In this document: positions 13,085-16,984 of the stretch, piece after piece | Layout of the letters: the number at the start of each line of letters is the position of its first letter | Position numbering within the stretch: position 1 is the first letter of the stretch | Assembly (NCBI GenBank): GCA_002449915.1 | Contig: DJXY01000122.1 | Location: 1-25,426, forward strand | DNA: 25,426 bases | Direction of reading: 5' to 3' | From: Oribacterium sp. UBA6992 | Lineage (GTDB): Bacteria; Bacillota; Clostridia; Lachnospirales; Lachnospiraceae | The notes under the pieces: model-generated | Databases searched by the model: none | The model's input: the letters and a program-made list of their open reading frames with translations, nothing else | Told to the model about the DNA's origin: nothing | Program-made: the position numbers and the translations under genes

Positions 13085-13234
13085 AAGAAACGTCCTTCCT
13101 GTACTGATGCAAATGTTTTCGACCCAAATATTTACGATCTGAATATTTATATCCCGCAGGCTCCCAGCAAGTTTTACTGTGCATGAAATTCCACTTCCGA
13201 AAAAGCTCCCCACGGCATCTTTTTCATTTATAGC

Positions 13235-13266
13235 ACAAATAAAGGGAGAGGCACAAGACCTCTCCC
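13235..13266 (-). terminator. Intrinsic terminator of ilvD
   Basis: On the minus strand GGGAGAGG/CCTCTCCC (13244-13266, 7-nt loop) is followed by TTTATTT. It lies 49 bases past the ilvD stop codon and in front of the dehydrogenase gene. Confidence 0.8.
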
Positions 13267-13315
13267 CTGATATTGCCCAAAACGGTATGGCATTATATAT
13301 AAATAAAAATCATGT

Positions 13316-14962
13316 TTACTCTACAATTGCTCCGGTATCTGCGGAATGCACAAGTTTAGCATATTTCTTAAGATAACCTGTGAGATTTCTCTGTTCACGG
13401 ATCTTCATCGTCTTTTTACGCTCCGCCATCTCCTCGTCAGAAACCTCAAGCTCAATGGAATAGTGCGGGATATCAATTTTGATCTTATCTCCATCCTTTA
13501 TATAAGCAATCGGTCCACCAGCCTGTGCTTCCGGCGAAATATGTCCGATCGCGGCTCCGCGGGACGCACCTGAGAAACGACCATCTGTAATCAGTGAAAC
13601 TGTCGTATCCAGTTTCATGCCGGCAATCGCGGAAGTGGGACTCAGCATCTCTCGCATGCCAGGTCCTCCGGCAGGTCCCTCATACCGGATCACAACGCAG
13701 TCTCCTGCCTTGATCTTGCCGCTATAGATGGCTCCGATCGCTTCCTCCTCCGAGTTGAAGCAGCGTGCCGTACATTCATTCACCATCATCTCCGGTGCAA
13801 CTGCTGACCGTTTCACGATAGAGCCGTGCGGAGCGAGATTACCATACAGTACGGCAAGTCCGCCTTCCTTAAGGTACGGATTGTCCCAGGGACGGATCAC
13901 ATCCGTGTTTTTAACCTTGGCATCCTTTGTGGCTTCACCGATCGTCTTGCCAAGCACCGTCATACAATCCTCATGGATCAGACCATGCTCTGCAAGCTCA
14001 TGGATTACCGCATAGATTCCACCGGCCTCCATAAGATCCTGCATATGATGATGTCCTGCAGGAGCCAGATGGCAGAGATTCGGTGTCTTGTCGGAAATTT
14101 CATTGATCTTATGCAGGTCAAACGGCACACCTGCCTCATGCGCTACTGCCATCAGGTGCAGCGCGGTATTGGTCGAGCATCCCAGCGCCATATCTGTGGT
14201 TAAAGCATTCTCAATGGCATCTGCTGTGATGATATCTCTCGGACGAATGTTTTTATTGAGGACATCCATCACACGCATACCGGCTTCCTTGGCAAGTCTC
14301 AGTCTTGCAGAGTACACCGCTGGAATCGTACCATTGCCCGGAAGCGCCATGCCTAGAACCTCGCAGAGAGAGTTCATGGAATTGGCTGTGAACATACCGG
14401 AGCAGGAACCGCAGGTCGGACAGCAGGAGTTCTCTACATCCGCAACTCCTGCCTCATCCAGAAGTCCCGCCTTATAAGCACCGACTGCTTCAAACGCGGT
14501 GTTCAGATCGCGCTCATGGATCGAGAGCATCGGACCGCCGGAGACAAAAACACACGGGAGATTGAGACGAACCGCGGCAAGCAGCATGCCCGGCACGATT
14601 TTATCGCAGTTCGGGCAGAAAACAAGTGCGTCCAATGCATGTCCAGTTGCCATACACTCAATGGTATCCGCAATCAGCTCCCGGGAGGAAAGTGAGAAAT
14701 GCATTCCGTCGTGTCCCATGGCAATGCCATCGCAGACAGCTATGGTATTAAACTCAAGCGGTGTACCGCCAGCCATAAGCACGCCATCCTTTACAGCTCT
14801 TGCGATCTGCTCCATATGCATATGTCCAGGAACCACCTCTGCAAAGGAATTAACTACTCCAATGAGCGGACGTCTCATCTGCTCATCCGTAAGTCCATCC
14901 GCCTTGAGCAGGGAACGATGCGGTGTATGCTCCACACCCTGCTTTACTAAATCACTACGCAT
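13316..14962 (-). CDS. ilvD: Dihydroxy-acid dehydratase
   Basis: 548 aa, normal length. IlvD dehydrates 2,3-dihydroxy-isovalerate and 2,3-dihydroxy-3-methylvalerate to the oxo acids that become valine, leucine and isoleucine. Motifs from the N-terminus: SFAEVVPGH (39-47), [11 protein letters not shown] (77-87), [11 protein letters not shown] (116-126, C119 cluster ligand), [13 protein letters not shown] (C187 ligand) and GRFSGASRG towards the C-terminus. The PGH in place of PCN in the first motif marks the oxygen-sensitive [4Fe-4S] type, as in E. coli IlvD, which fits an anaerobe. The ATG at 14960-14962 has GGAGG eight bases upstream; a TTG slightly further upstream overlaps that site and is rejected. 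It has its own promoter at 15021-15049 and may also be read from the attenuated ilvN promoter. Confidence 0.96.
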
Positions 14963-15020
14963 ATTATTTTCCTCCAAAATCAGGATTGATATACATGTCT
15001 ATTTTTACTACTACAAAATC

Positions 15021-15049
15021 ATCTTATCTATTACAAGATCTAAAGTCAA
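15021..15049 (-). promoter_or_regulatory. Promoter in front of ilvD
   Basis: Minus strand TTGACT (15044-15049), 17-nt spacer, TAAGAT (15021-15026); leader about 55 nt. It allows ilvD to be expressed independently of the ilvN leader. Confidence 0.7.
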
Positions 15050-15096
15050 GGAACACAAATTCATGCAGGAAATAACCTCAAGTTATTATTGGATTG

Positions 15097-15171
15097 TCAG
15101 ATATATCTGATAGTTAAATCAGATAAAAACGTCTCTGCCTGCTGAATCAAATACAATAGCTGTATCAGATA
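15097..15171. repeat. Cluster of TATCAGATA-like repeats upstream of the ilvD promoter
   Basis: Copies on the plus strand: GTCAGATA (15096-15103), inverted TATCTGATA (15104-15112), AATCAGATA (15117-15125), one-mismatch AATCAAATA (15145-15153) and TATCAGATA (15163-15171). The first two form a 14-bp palindrome, TCAGATATATCTGA. All lie 50-125 bases upstream of the ilvD -35, a position fitting an activator or repressor binding region. No known operator is recognised. Confidence 0.6.
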
Positions 15172-15240
15172 GCCGCATGCCAGGTAAAAATACCTGTTCG
15201 TACCTCCAAGTTCAGACCAAAATCGTATTTCTTAAGGAAA

Positions 15241-15486
15241 TCACAGTCCCTCGCGGCTGACGATCATAGCTTCATGCACAGAATGCAGCGCGCCGAGATG
15301 CTTAATGACCTGATTCATGGAATCATCTCCCATGGAAACGATCGTTATCCTGGATGCATTGCTGCCGACAGCCGGTCCTGCGTTGATCGAATCGATACGA
15401 TAATTCTGTCTTTCAAACACGCCTGTAATCCGCTCCAATGCATAAGACCAGTTATCAACCAAAAGCTCAACCGTATACTTACTCAT
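15241..15486 (-). CDS. ilvN: ACT-domain acetolactate synthase small subunit (IlvN-like)
   Basis: 81 aa, a single ACT domain. MSKYTVELLVDNWSYALERI, then TGVFERQNYRIDSINAG, is the start of the regulatory subunit of acetohydroxyacid synthase, with the glycine-containing turn region that binds valine in this family. Full IlvN/IlvH has about 160 residues; this form has the ACT part only and lacks the C-terminal domain. The short type is known in some bacteria. An AAGGAG site precedes the ATG. The catalytic subunit gene ilvB and ilvC are not in the window. It is the first gene after a leader-peptide attenuator and is followed by ilvD on the same strand, consistent with branched-chain amino acid control. 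An ACT protein of other function cannot be excluded. Confidence 0.8.
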   Translation of the reverse strand: MSKYTVELLVDNWSYALERITGVFERQNYRIDSINAGPAVGSNASRITIVSMGDDSMNQVIKHLGALHSVHEAMIVSREGL

Positions 15487-15596
15487 TTTCTTCTCCTTAA
15501 ACCTGCGATGTAAAGATAAAGCTCCGACATCGCTACGGAATGCACCGGCTCCGGATTTCCAGCAGCATCCAAACGATGATCTTGAGATAACAAAGC

Positions 15597-15638
15597 AATA
15601 AAAAATGAGGACCCTGCGTTACTTGCAAGGTCCTCATT
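15597..15638 (-). terminator. Attenuator terminator in the ilvN leader
   Basis: Minus strand: a perfect 10-bp stem AATGAGGACC/GGTCCTCATT (15629-15638 and 15604-15613, 15-nt loop) followed by six T residues and ATTG. It lies about 110 nt before the ilvN start and downstream of the leader peptide. The loop contains GTAACGC, complementary to GCGTTAC in the leader peptide coding region (15676-15682). CCTTG at the top of the 5' arm is complementary to CAAGG (15665-15669), and TGTCA next to it to TGACA (15657-15661). These pairings make a competing antiterminator. Confidence 0.88.
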
Positions 15639-15658
15639 GACATGAACTTTATTATCTG

Positions 15659-15769
15659 TCAGCTCCTTGAATCCGGTAACGCAAAAGAAACGTTATTGCA
15701 CACGACTGCAATGACGTTAATCAGGATAATAATGACAGATGTAATTGTGAAATTATGCTCCTGAACCAT
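15659..15769 (-). CDS. Leader peptide of the ilvN attenuator
   Basis: A 36-codon open reading frame with ATG at 15767-15769 and TGA at 15659-15661, preceded by AAGGGG ten bases upstream. It has 6 Ile, 6 Val and 2 Leu codons, concentrated in codons 12-23 (SVIIILINVIAVV). This is the composition of attenuator leader peptides for Ile/Val biosynthesis. Ribosome stalling on these codons under starvation would leave the GCGTTAC segment near the end of the frame free to form the antiterminator. A ribosome reaching the stop codon would cover it and let the terminator form. The peptide itself probably has no function. It ends 20 bases before the terminator stem. Confidence 0.85.
   Translation of the reverse strand: MVQEHNFTITSVIIILINVIAVVCNNVSFALPDSRS
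15689..15718 (-). promoter_or_regulatory. Pause-type hairpin in the ilvN leader
   Basis: Minus strand AACGTCATTGCA (15707-15718) and TGCAATAACGTT (15689-15700) pair over 12 positions with one mismatch around a 6-nt loop. It overlaps the Ile/Val codon cluster of the leader peptide, as the 1:2 pause hairpin does in classical attenuators. Confidence 0.7.
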
Positions 15770-15801
15770 CCAGCGCGTTCCCCTTTCCAAGAATTGTCCT
15801 A

Positions 15802-15830
15802 AGTTTAGCCCCGATTTTTGGAGATGTCAA
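15802..15830 (-). promoter_or_regulatory. Promoter of the ilvN leader transcript
   Basis: Minus strand TTGACA (15825-15830), 17-nt spacer, TAAACT (15802-15807). The -35 is perfect. The start of transcription near 15795 leaves about 25 nt before the leader peptide and about 310 nt before ilvN. Confidence 0.85.
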
Positions 15831-15891
15831 GTTTTTTTATGTCTCTTATAACCGGAATTAATGTCTGTCAACCTTTCCTGCATGCTCATCC

Positions 15892-16836
15892 TTAACCATG
15901 TTGCTGCATTTCCTCAAGCTTTGTAAGGAGATACGGATGTAGCCCTCCCGAAATATAAAATAAGGCAAGAATCATCACGCCCTGCGGCATCAGAAACATC
16001 CCAAGGATACTGAGCAGCAGCACCACTCCCCGTTTCCCGGAAACATAGCAACGGATGACCAGCGACAGTGCAATCACGCCAAACACGATGAGATAAAAAT
16101 ACCCCAGCATACCGACCGTTTCCAGGACGCCCTGCGTCAAAGGATCCATTCCCGGCTTTGCAAAGGCATAGCTGTAACCCATGAATGCAATAAAAGCCAC
16201 GAGTCCGCTCCACTTTGGAGGATAGTATTGTGAAACTGCCTTGGGCTTTTGTACAGGGATCCTCATGCGCCGCAGAATAAGAAGGCTGATTTCATAGATC
16301 AGAAAGCCCTGAAAGGCTCCCCCGAGCGCAATCGAGACCAGAAATAAGCGCCGGAGAAAGTCTGTACTGAGCATGGCGTCCGGCAGCGCGACATTAGCCT
16401 TTTGCATGGCGAGACGCATCCCTTCCTGCATTTCCCTCACCTCTGCATCCAGATTGTAGCCGGATATCCCGGCAAGAAGCACGAGATTCAGGAGATTGGA
16501 CAATACGCAGAGAAACATGACAACAAGGAGCGTTTTGGTCGGATCCATCTTACGAAACATCATAGCACCAAAAATCATCCCGACAAACGCCGCGCTGATG
16601 GCATAAAACATACTTGTGAGTGTACTCGTGAGAAACGCAGTAAAGACCATGCAGACAAAAACCGTGAGGCTGCTCCGGCCTCCGTATCTTGCGGCGTATG
16701 CGACCATGGGAATCGGAAATAGATAGGTAAAGCTGCCCTCCAGCAGGCCTCCCATCTGCCGGTTAAAAAGCAGTAAAACGCCAAAAATCGCAACGATCAT
16801 GGCTCCGGTGGTAATTTTTAAGGTTCTTTTATTCAT
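15892..16836 (-). CDS. DUF2232 family membrane protein (YybS-like)
   Basis: 314 aa with about eight hydrophobic segments. The early region EGSFTYLFPIPMVAYAARYG and the helix pattern match the DUF2232/YybS family of Firmicute membrane proteins (recalled family pattern). Their biochemical role is not established; they resemble S components of ECF-type transporters in size and fold prediction. The loop around 130-160 (EVREMQEGMRLAMQKANVAL) is amphipathic. An AGAGGA site lies unusually far (about 11 bases) from the ATG. A promoter at 16985-17013 gives a leader of about 140 nt. It is monocistronic in this window. Confidence 0.82.
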   Translation of the reverse strand: MNKRTLKITTGAMIVAIFGVLLLFNRQMGGLLEGSFTYLFPIPMVAYAARYGGRSSLTVFVCMVFTAFLTSTLTSMFYAISAAFVGMIFGAMMFRKMDPTKTLLVVMFLCVLSNLLNLVLLAGISGYNLDAEVREMQEGMRLAMQKANVALPDAMLSTDFLRRLFLVSIALGGAFQGFLIYEISLLILRRMRIPVQKPKAVSQYYPPKWSGLVAFIAFMGYSYAFAKPGMDPLTQGVLETVGMLGYFYLIVFGVIALSLVIRCYVSGKRGVVLLLSILGMFLMPQGVMILALFYISGGLHPYLLTKLEEMQQHG

Positions 16837-16984
16837 GCGTTATATTATCCTCTGTCAAAATGATCTGTATCGCATTCTCCGCGATTTCCTATGGAAAATC
16901 AGGCTCCTGGACCGGCGTATCCGTAAAGAAGCTTCCGGTTGCTGATCCGCCGCATAGGCACAGCCGGATTTTATGTCTTACTAT

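Follow-up and report, generated by a model that had tools for sequence, protein, structure and literature searches.

What regulates the short ilvN-like gene that occurs in the 25,426-nucleotide stretch of Oribacterium sp. UBA6992 DNA analysed here, and why does a small open reading frame rich in isoleucine and valine codons stand ahead of it, followed by a terminator? We refer to the whole stretch as the window; it is contig C38 of genome G000, an incomplete assembly of 1.84 Mb in 225 contigs (73% complete). We suggest that the locus is, with high probability, a ribosome-mediated transcription attenuator which senses charged tRNA-Ile and tRNA-Val, perhaps Leu as well, and that its leader is very probably a starvation sensor of a known kind. 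We favor this reading because sequence shows all the elements of an attenuator, shows them conserved in relatives, and reveals covariation in each of the two competing structures. The genes behind the leaders belong to the pathway: ilvN in the window, ilvB in relatives. The features on which the argument is built are as follows.

15830-15802, minus strand: promoter TTGACA-N17-TAAACT, 10 of 12 consensus bases
15786-15780, minus strand: ribosome-binding site AAAGGGG of the leader frame, 10 nt before the ATG
15779-15775, minus strand: AACGC, just 3´ of AAAGGGG, able to pair with GCGTT of strand 2
15659..15769, minus strand: leader frame of 36 codons, ATG 15769 to TGA 15659, peptide MVQEHNFTITSVIIILINVIAVVCNNVSFALPDSRS
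15718-15689, minus strand: hairpin P1 over the regulatory codons, arms AACGTCATTGCA/TGCAATAACGTT, from the minimum-energy fold
15682-15676, minus strand: strand 2 of the antiterminator, GCGTTAC, within the 3´ part of the leader frame
15669-15665, minus strand: CAAGG, extension of strand 2, pairs with CCTTG
15661-15657 and 15642-15638, minus strand: antiterminator pair TGACA/TGTCA
15616..15630, minus strand: antiterminator strand 3, CCTTG (15630-15626) and GTAACGC (15622-15616)
15600..15638, minus strand: intrinsic terminator, 14-bp stem, 7-nt loop and six T, from fold and conserved pairs
15241..15486, minus strand: short ilvN-like gene of 81 aa, the first to follow the attenuator, Pfam ACT_AHAS_ss
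15049-15021, minus strand: weak promoter-like site between ilvN and ilvD, from the promoter scan
13316..14962, minus strand: ilvD (dihydroxy-acid dehydratase), from its ATG; the list of open reading frames starts it at TTG 14977

The preliminary description of this DNA had named the promoter, the 36-codon frame with 12 Ile/Val and two Leu codons, a hairpin overlapping the regulatory codons, and an antiterminator made of GCGTTAC/GTAACGC, CAAGG/CCTTG and TGACA/TGTCA which borrows bases from the terminator stem and loop. All of these are present. The frame holds six Ile, six Val and two Leu codons, and its translation is predicted from the signal AAAGGGG. Taken alone, the promoter is no better than chance, because a scan of 13200-16900 yields 7 such sites versus 5.4 expected; an exact TTGACA stands at roughly equal position in 7 of 12 aligned relatives, and TTGACT in two further ones. 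Hairpin P1, possibly a pause hairpin for the polymerase, is retained in relatives with G-U and some compensatory changes. The fold of the leader is unusually stable (z = -5.3), as is that of the terminator piece (z = -6.8), which stands between the leader frame and the first gene, ilvN. This terminator had been called perfect, with six Ts; the 14 contiguous pairs of its stem (15638-15604) and the six T (15605-15600) hold, but one of the pairs is G-U. Strand 3 extends over the 5´ arm, the loop and the first bases of the 3´ arm, and the antiterminator folds once the 3´ arm is omitted, so that folding recovers both alternative structures proposed earlier. The antiterminator piece by itself reaches z = -2.4, with 4 of 200 shuffles equally good, and the duplex of strand 2 with its own strand 3 (-17.9) is more stable than those with swapped partners (mean -11.0, best -13.0). 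The pairing of AACGC with GCGTT may form a protector stem; in the window alone it gives p=0.52 against shuffles. We also scanned the window for frames of 20-60 codons with at least 8 I/L/V in 10 residues, followed within 110 nt of the stop by a stem with 9 or more pairs and a T run. Exactly one match was obtained, namely the Ile/Val leader, and none in 200 dinucleotide shuffles.

How might these parts work together? RNA polymerase would start at about 15795, judged from the promoter, and a ribosome would follow on the 36-codon frame. With isoleucine and valine in ample supply, the ribosome would reach the stop codon (15661-15659) and cover strand 2; the terminator would then form and transcription would end near 15600. 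With scarce isoleucine and valine, the ribosome would stall in SVIIILINVIAVV and leave strand 2 free to pair with strand 3, in which case no terminator would form and the polymerase could read into ilvN and perhaps ilvD. The stalling itself, the direction of the response, the role of P1 in pausing, the protector stem and the co-transcription of ilvD are elements which we infer.

The preliminary description had argued that a ribosome stalled on the control codons frees GCGTTAC and one at the stop codon covers it. A simulation by equilibrium folding rather than kinetics, in which a ribosome masks 29 nt and the RNA is grown to the end of strand 3, agrees with this for the window: the predicted probability of the antiterminator stays at 0.7 or above while the A site moves through codons 1-25, is 0.6 at codon 26 and remains under 0.1 between codon 27 and the stop. 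Eight leaders were covered. Those of genomes G014, G001 and G281 behave like the window and that of G003 does so from codon 5 onward, while G008 and G012 fit in part, with a weak antiterminator for some control codons. A second copy of the leader, found ahead of ilvB in the window's own genome, fits over the control codons; with the ribosome at the stop, its antiterminator comes back (0.8). In this copy the stop codon lies, in silico, too far from strand 2 to block it. When no ribosome is placed on the RNA, the antiterminator has a probability of 0.94 in the window and 0.01 to 0.93 in the other leaders. Because the partial transcript of the window favours the antiterminator under these circumstances, an untranslated leader might, according to the simulation, read through, contrary to textbook attenuators.

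Is the arrangement kept in relatives? Homologues of IlvN occur in 77 of 98 related genomes, own genome included, and we examined 16 stretches, of which 15 belong to genomes of the same genus and one to the window's own genome. A script detected a leader frame with a terminator in 12 of them; 11 of these leaders precede an operon of ilvB and a short ilvN, and one (G001, locus L045) precedes a lone short ilvN-like gene. The script saw no leader in the remaining stretches L035, L037, L047 and L050, of which L047 was later found to have one by a covariance model, and the contig of L035 starts inside ilvB. A typical peptide of relatives is MNNYSVILAVIIILVNIIVISNNAYLCKAFQEI; the window has SVIIILINVIAVVCNN at the same place. 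The 17 tabulated leaders contain 45% I/L/V, a figure that is partly selected, since besides the window 12 of the 17 were chosen by the script for an I/L/V-rich frame; the leaders found by models (L047, L127, L128 and L129, later L140 and L147-L150) are I/L/V-rich as well. Ahead of the control codons, aligned relatives differ in length, in some cases by multiples of three. Differences of one base follow the control codons in L039, L043, L044 and the window. In L039, L043 and L044 (G010, G015 and G016) a one-base insertion shifts the frame and the stop falls on strand 2, so strand 2 would still be masked, and this frameshift would keep the logic of the switch. Nine named genome records contain the leader: eight are from Oribacterium, O. 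parvum among them, and one is Lachnospiraceae bacterium JC7. In line with the structure first described, the alignment of relatives retains the frame of the leader with its Ile/Val codons, and likewise the terminator and the pairing that competes with it; the pairings covary.

The covariation tests rest on few, related sequences; the alignment of 11 leaders comprises 10 distinct rows. There, 95.5% of cells pair in the antiterminator, a level reached by 0 of 500 shuffles, and double changes occur at two pairs (A-U to C-G and C-G to U-A), a count not above that of shuffles, 211 of 500 of which reach two. For the terminator together with P1, all cells (100%) pair in the same 11 leaders (0/500 shuffles), with double changes at two terminator pairs, which again do not exceed shuffles (158/500 reach this count). 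In an alignment of 21 leaders 96.2% of cells pair in terminator and P1 and 12 of 18 pairs show double changes (0/500 shuffles); this alignment was fitted to the model and hence leans toward pairing. The antiterminator was further assessed through duplex energies, in which strand 2 was matched either to its own strand 3 or to the strand 3 of other lineages. Over 15 ilv lineages the own-partner sum is -254.3, compared with -189.4 (sd 10.7) for swapped partners, and 0 of 20000 permutations reach it. The same figure of 0/20000 applies to 11 lineages and to 17 lineages with two non-ilv ones included, and 6/20000 to nine leaders absent from any model; the models R1 and R2 described below held the pairs of P1 and the terminator, not the antiterminator pairing. 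Only 7 of 15 lineages have their own strand 3 as the top-ranking partner, because related lineages share sequence. The protector pairing, which would join strand 2 to the flank of the ribosome-binding site, is possible in the majority of leaders, with 43/20000 permutations as good over 15 lineages, 2052/20000 over 11 lineages and 879/20000 over the nine held-out leaders. That an antiterminator excludes the terminator is a prediction supported by covariation.

These data also bear on the notion that the 36-residue product is simply a small membrane protein, with a terminator that merely separates its gene from ilvN. The peptide is indeed very hydrophobic. Its length and sequence nevertheless drift among relatives while the I/L/V content stays, the antiterminator strand within the frame covaries with the terminator loop, and the position ahead of ilv genes is retained; we give this proposal hardly any credence.

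Covariance models were built without the window, because an alignment that included it (A1) misplaced its terminator; the window thereby serves as a held-out test. R1, made from 11 ilvB leaders, was run on 88.5 kb from 10 sources and gave three matches and no others: L047 at 68.4 bits, the window at 37.3 bits (E 1.4e-5) and L045 at 32.5 bits. In the genus R1 recovers 13 of 17 genomes, including the 11 on which it was trained; one of the four genomes without a match, G001, has the divergent copy L045. A second match in G016 (36.3 bits) consists of the hydrophobic end of another frame and a terminator with no ilv gene, and is probably false. As its score nearly equals that of the window, the R1 score alone is not decisive. 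In the family, R1 matches 5 of 250 genomes, with three other genera that have ilvB downstream and peptides such as MMTSLVLLAVVIRIIVSIIVVCENAYLRYAEPEVI. No R1 match was obtained in the loci of the large-subunit genes of G001, G005, G007 and G002, nor in L052 and L053. A pattern of the peptide core occurs in 54 genome stretches, nine of which are leaders by R1; the best R1 match in the other 45 has 22.9 bits (E 0.048).

The second model, R2, combines the R1 leaders, L047 and the leaders of the three other genera, again excluding the window and L045, which score 42.0 and 49.6 bits, respectively. It matches 10 of 397 genomes of the family (8 of 334 genera) and 3 of 391 genomes in a sample of the class. 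The genome counts given for R1 and R2 are lower bounds, because the samples overlap and the large searches use stricter filters. The newly found readable leaders (L147-L150) are rich in branched-chain residues and stand ahead of ilvB; the leader of G117 appears to be split across two contig ends. The attenuator is patchy in the family (10/397 genomes), and its predicted usual target in relatives is ilvB-ilvN.

Why, then, does the window carry it in front of a lone ilvN? R2 identifies a second leader in the same genome (L140, contig C177:436-265, minus strand; peptide MNLLTIVIYLISISVVSLGNEFLRCTKQVIRNF), directly before an ilvB that is cut off by the contig end after its first 54 codons. Another contig, C62, begins inside ilvB, after which come short ilvN, ilvC, ilvA, a second ilvB and a long ilvN; C177 and C62 would seem to be one operon. 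A weak R2 match within C62 (18.7 bits) is the end of the ilvA gene with its terminator, not a leader. Since one copy precedes ilvB in this genome, both the leader and the ilvN of the window are paralogous copies. The window protein reaches 43.9 bits against Pfam ACT_AHAS_ss (cut-off 27) and stays below the NCBIfam equivalog cut-offs (51.2 vs 119; 43.2 vs 56.9), as a short protein may. A homologous-protein search with it returned one protein, 99% identical, among two candidates. In a tree of 19 IlvN rows, 15 of them different, it groups with the lone G001 protein at a support of 93/94, below the 95/80 mark of the program, and the ilvB-linked IlvN proteins stand apart; long branches make its placement unsure. 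The G001 protein, which has no NCBIfam match at 1e-5, is called ilvN-like because of its similarity to the window IlvN only. Duplication has apparently placed the attenuator of the window on a lone IlvN regulatory-subunit paralogue.

Such a duplication raises the question whether the window has a decaying copy, which was duplicated along with ilvN, left the ilvB operon and lost its function. Among 21 leaders scored jointly, that of the window has diverged furthest (R2 42.0 bits, the lowest), the protein it would regulate is a diverged IlvN paralogue, and the other copy stands ahead of ilvB in the same genome. Yet every part is intact in the window, the antiterminator strands still match each other despite a different sequence (GCGTTAC/GTAACGC) and the ribosome logic holds in silico; decay is therefore, in our view, very unlikely. 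A working attenuator would possibly have ilvD as a further target, by co-transcription with ilvN across a gap of about 280 nt. Within this gap, upstream of the weak promoter-like site, lies an inverted repeat AATAAC-TTGAG-GTTATT (15087-15071, minus strand). ilvD may have a control of its own.

Could the same scaffold serve other pathways? In another family of the class, R2 matches 2 of 9 genomes, G388 and G460. The G388 leader MNTLNLTSIAYIYFFSFTGFFYRKAFLRAVAR (R2 45.4 bits; L139:1682-1501, minus strand, G388:C7) is rich in Phe and Tyr, has 32 codons, and precedes DAHP synthase, prephenate dehydrogenase and further frames (operon in L144), with chorismate mutase/prephenate dehydratase at the far end of the run. 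The G460 leader MNNIYFVIISIILISIIIIRDTAVLRCAKIKG (R2 72.9 bits; L143:1764-1933, plus strand, G460:C164) is Ile-rich, and its frame and terminator precede a set of GerA, GerAC and spore-permease genes; at -10.3 kcal/mol its antiterminator is weak, and a contamination of 6% is recorded for the genome. Amino acid attenuation would be unexpected for an operon of GerA, GerAC and spore permease. The two leaders hint at a reused scaffold with exchangeable control codons. One may go further and imagine the Oribacterium ilv leader as a member of a modular family of Clostridia attenuators, in which the scaffold is kept and control codons and targets are exchanged, a view that we regard as rather doubtful at present. 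The scaffold would comprise a strand 2 with TTTGCGT (peptide tail like AxLRxA), a two-part antiterminator and the terminator. It would be combined with Ile/Val codons for ilvB or lone ilvN, Phe/Tyr codons for the aromatic operon of G388 and Ile codons for the spore germination receptor operon of G460.

Firmicutes also control amino acid genes by other RNAs, and the leader might belong to these: a T-box or metabolite riboswitch could act ahead of ilvN, the small frame being a by-product. T-boxes are present in the same genome, where four matches (L001-L004), three over the cut-off, served as a control; three of the four precede thrS, pheS and trpD. A ppGpp riboswitch class is moreover reported to control ilvB in Firmicutes (accessible part of PMC10272879). 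The T-box covariance model has no match at the window locus or the related loci searched, as the preliminary description had maintained for the window. No family of Rfam release 15 reaches its gathering score at the leaders searched, in the window or in relatives; only two tRNAs do so, away from the leaders. A permissive Rfam search of the window gave three sub-threshold matches, all unrelated. What is conserved is an I/L/V-rich frame with short competing duplexes, without an aptamer-like core, and we consider a riboswitch highly improbable. With attenuation by a leader peptide as our preferred reading, T-boxes and leader-peptide attenuators in one genome mean that two strategies of sensing aminoacyl-tRNA by RNA coexist.

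The earlier division, leader peptides in proteobacteria against T-boxes in Firmicutes, is too simple in the light of Gram-positive cases. According to the accessible text of PMC6123439 and PMC5794164, branched-chain operons are reported to be under ribosome-mediated attenuation in S. aureus and L. monocytogenes, and the same is predicted in Lactococcus, Streptococcus and Corynebacterium; PMC10272879, likewise in part, reports or predicts it in Corynebacterium. Portions of further papers report leader peptides for hisS in bacilli (PMC2965389) and His leaders in three Firmicutes lineages (PMC9413887).

The window leader has its terminator/antiterminator arrangement in common with the E. coli ilvGMEDA and ilvBN attenuators. 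It also resembles them in a short frame of branched-chain codons ahead of ilv genes and in attenuation, as far as the available portion of PMC6123439 describes them. The comparison is by layout, and the two differ in lineage and in target, the window having a lone ilvN, with a second copy ahead of ilvB. The S. aureus ilvD attenuator, as presented in the accessible sections of PMC5794164, is Gram-positive too and has a leader peptide rich in branched-chain residues upstream of an ilv operon, and reporter evidence supports it. Its peptide is Leu-rich (PMC5794164) and that of the window Ile/Val-rich. In the S. aureus model the antiterminator ties up the poly-U tail and leaves the terminator stem intact, in contrast to strand 3 of the window, which lies within the terminator stem and loop; CodY acts on S. 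aureus ilvD as well (both PMC5794164, in part). The ilvB-II and ilvB-OMG uORF motifs place a frame rich in branched-chain codons upstream of ilvB, and ilvB-II has a terminator, like the window leader. These motifs come from Corynebacterium and various phyla (PMC10272879, accessible part); the Rfam copy compared here may omit them. For the G388 leader, a comparable case is the aroF candidate uORFC-13-1 of Acholeplasma, a Phe-codon leader ahead of aroF which belongs to another lineage and is likened by layout (PMC8632094, as far as available).

The mechanism of attenuation is already known, Gram-positives included. Among the entries listed in literature searches on Lachnospiraceae, Oribacterium and Clostridia, no description of this attenuator appeared, subscription papers being outside the scope of the search. 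As far as literature searches go, the lineage, an RNA family without Rfam match and the placement on a lone ilvN are new. To the known systems our analysis would add, for part of Lachnospiraceae, a leader-peptide attenuator of branched-chain amino acid genes that is conserved and supported by covariation, and one genome which carries it twice, at the ilvB operon and at a lone regulatory-subunit paralogue. The R1 and R2 models could seed a new RNA family entry and tests of whether the scaffold is combined with other control codons.
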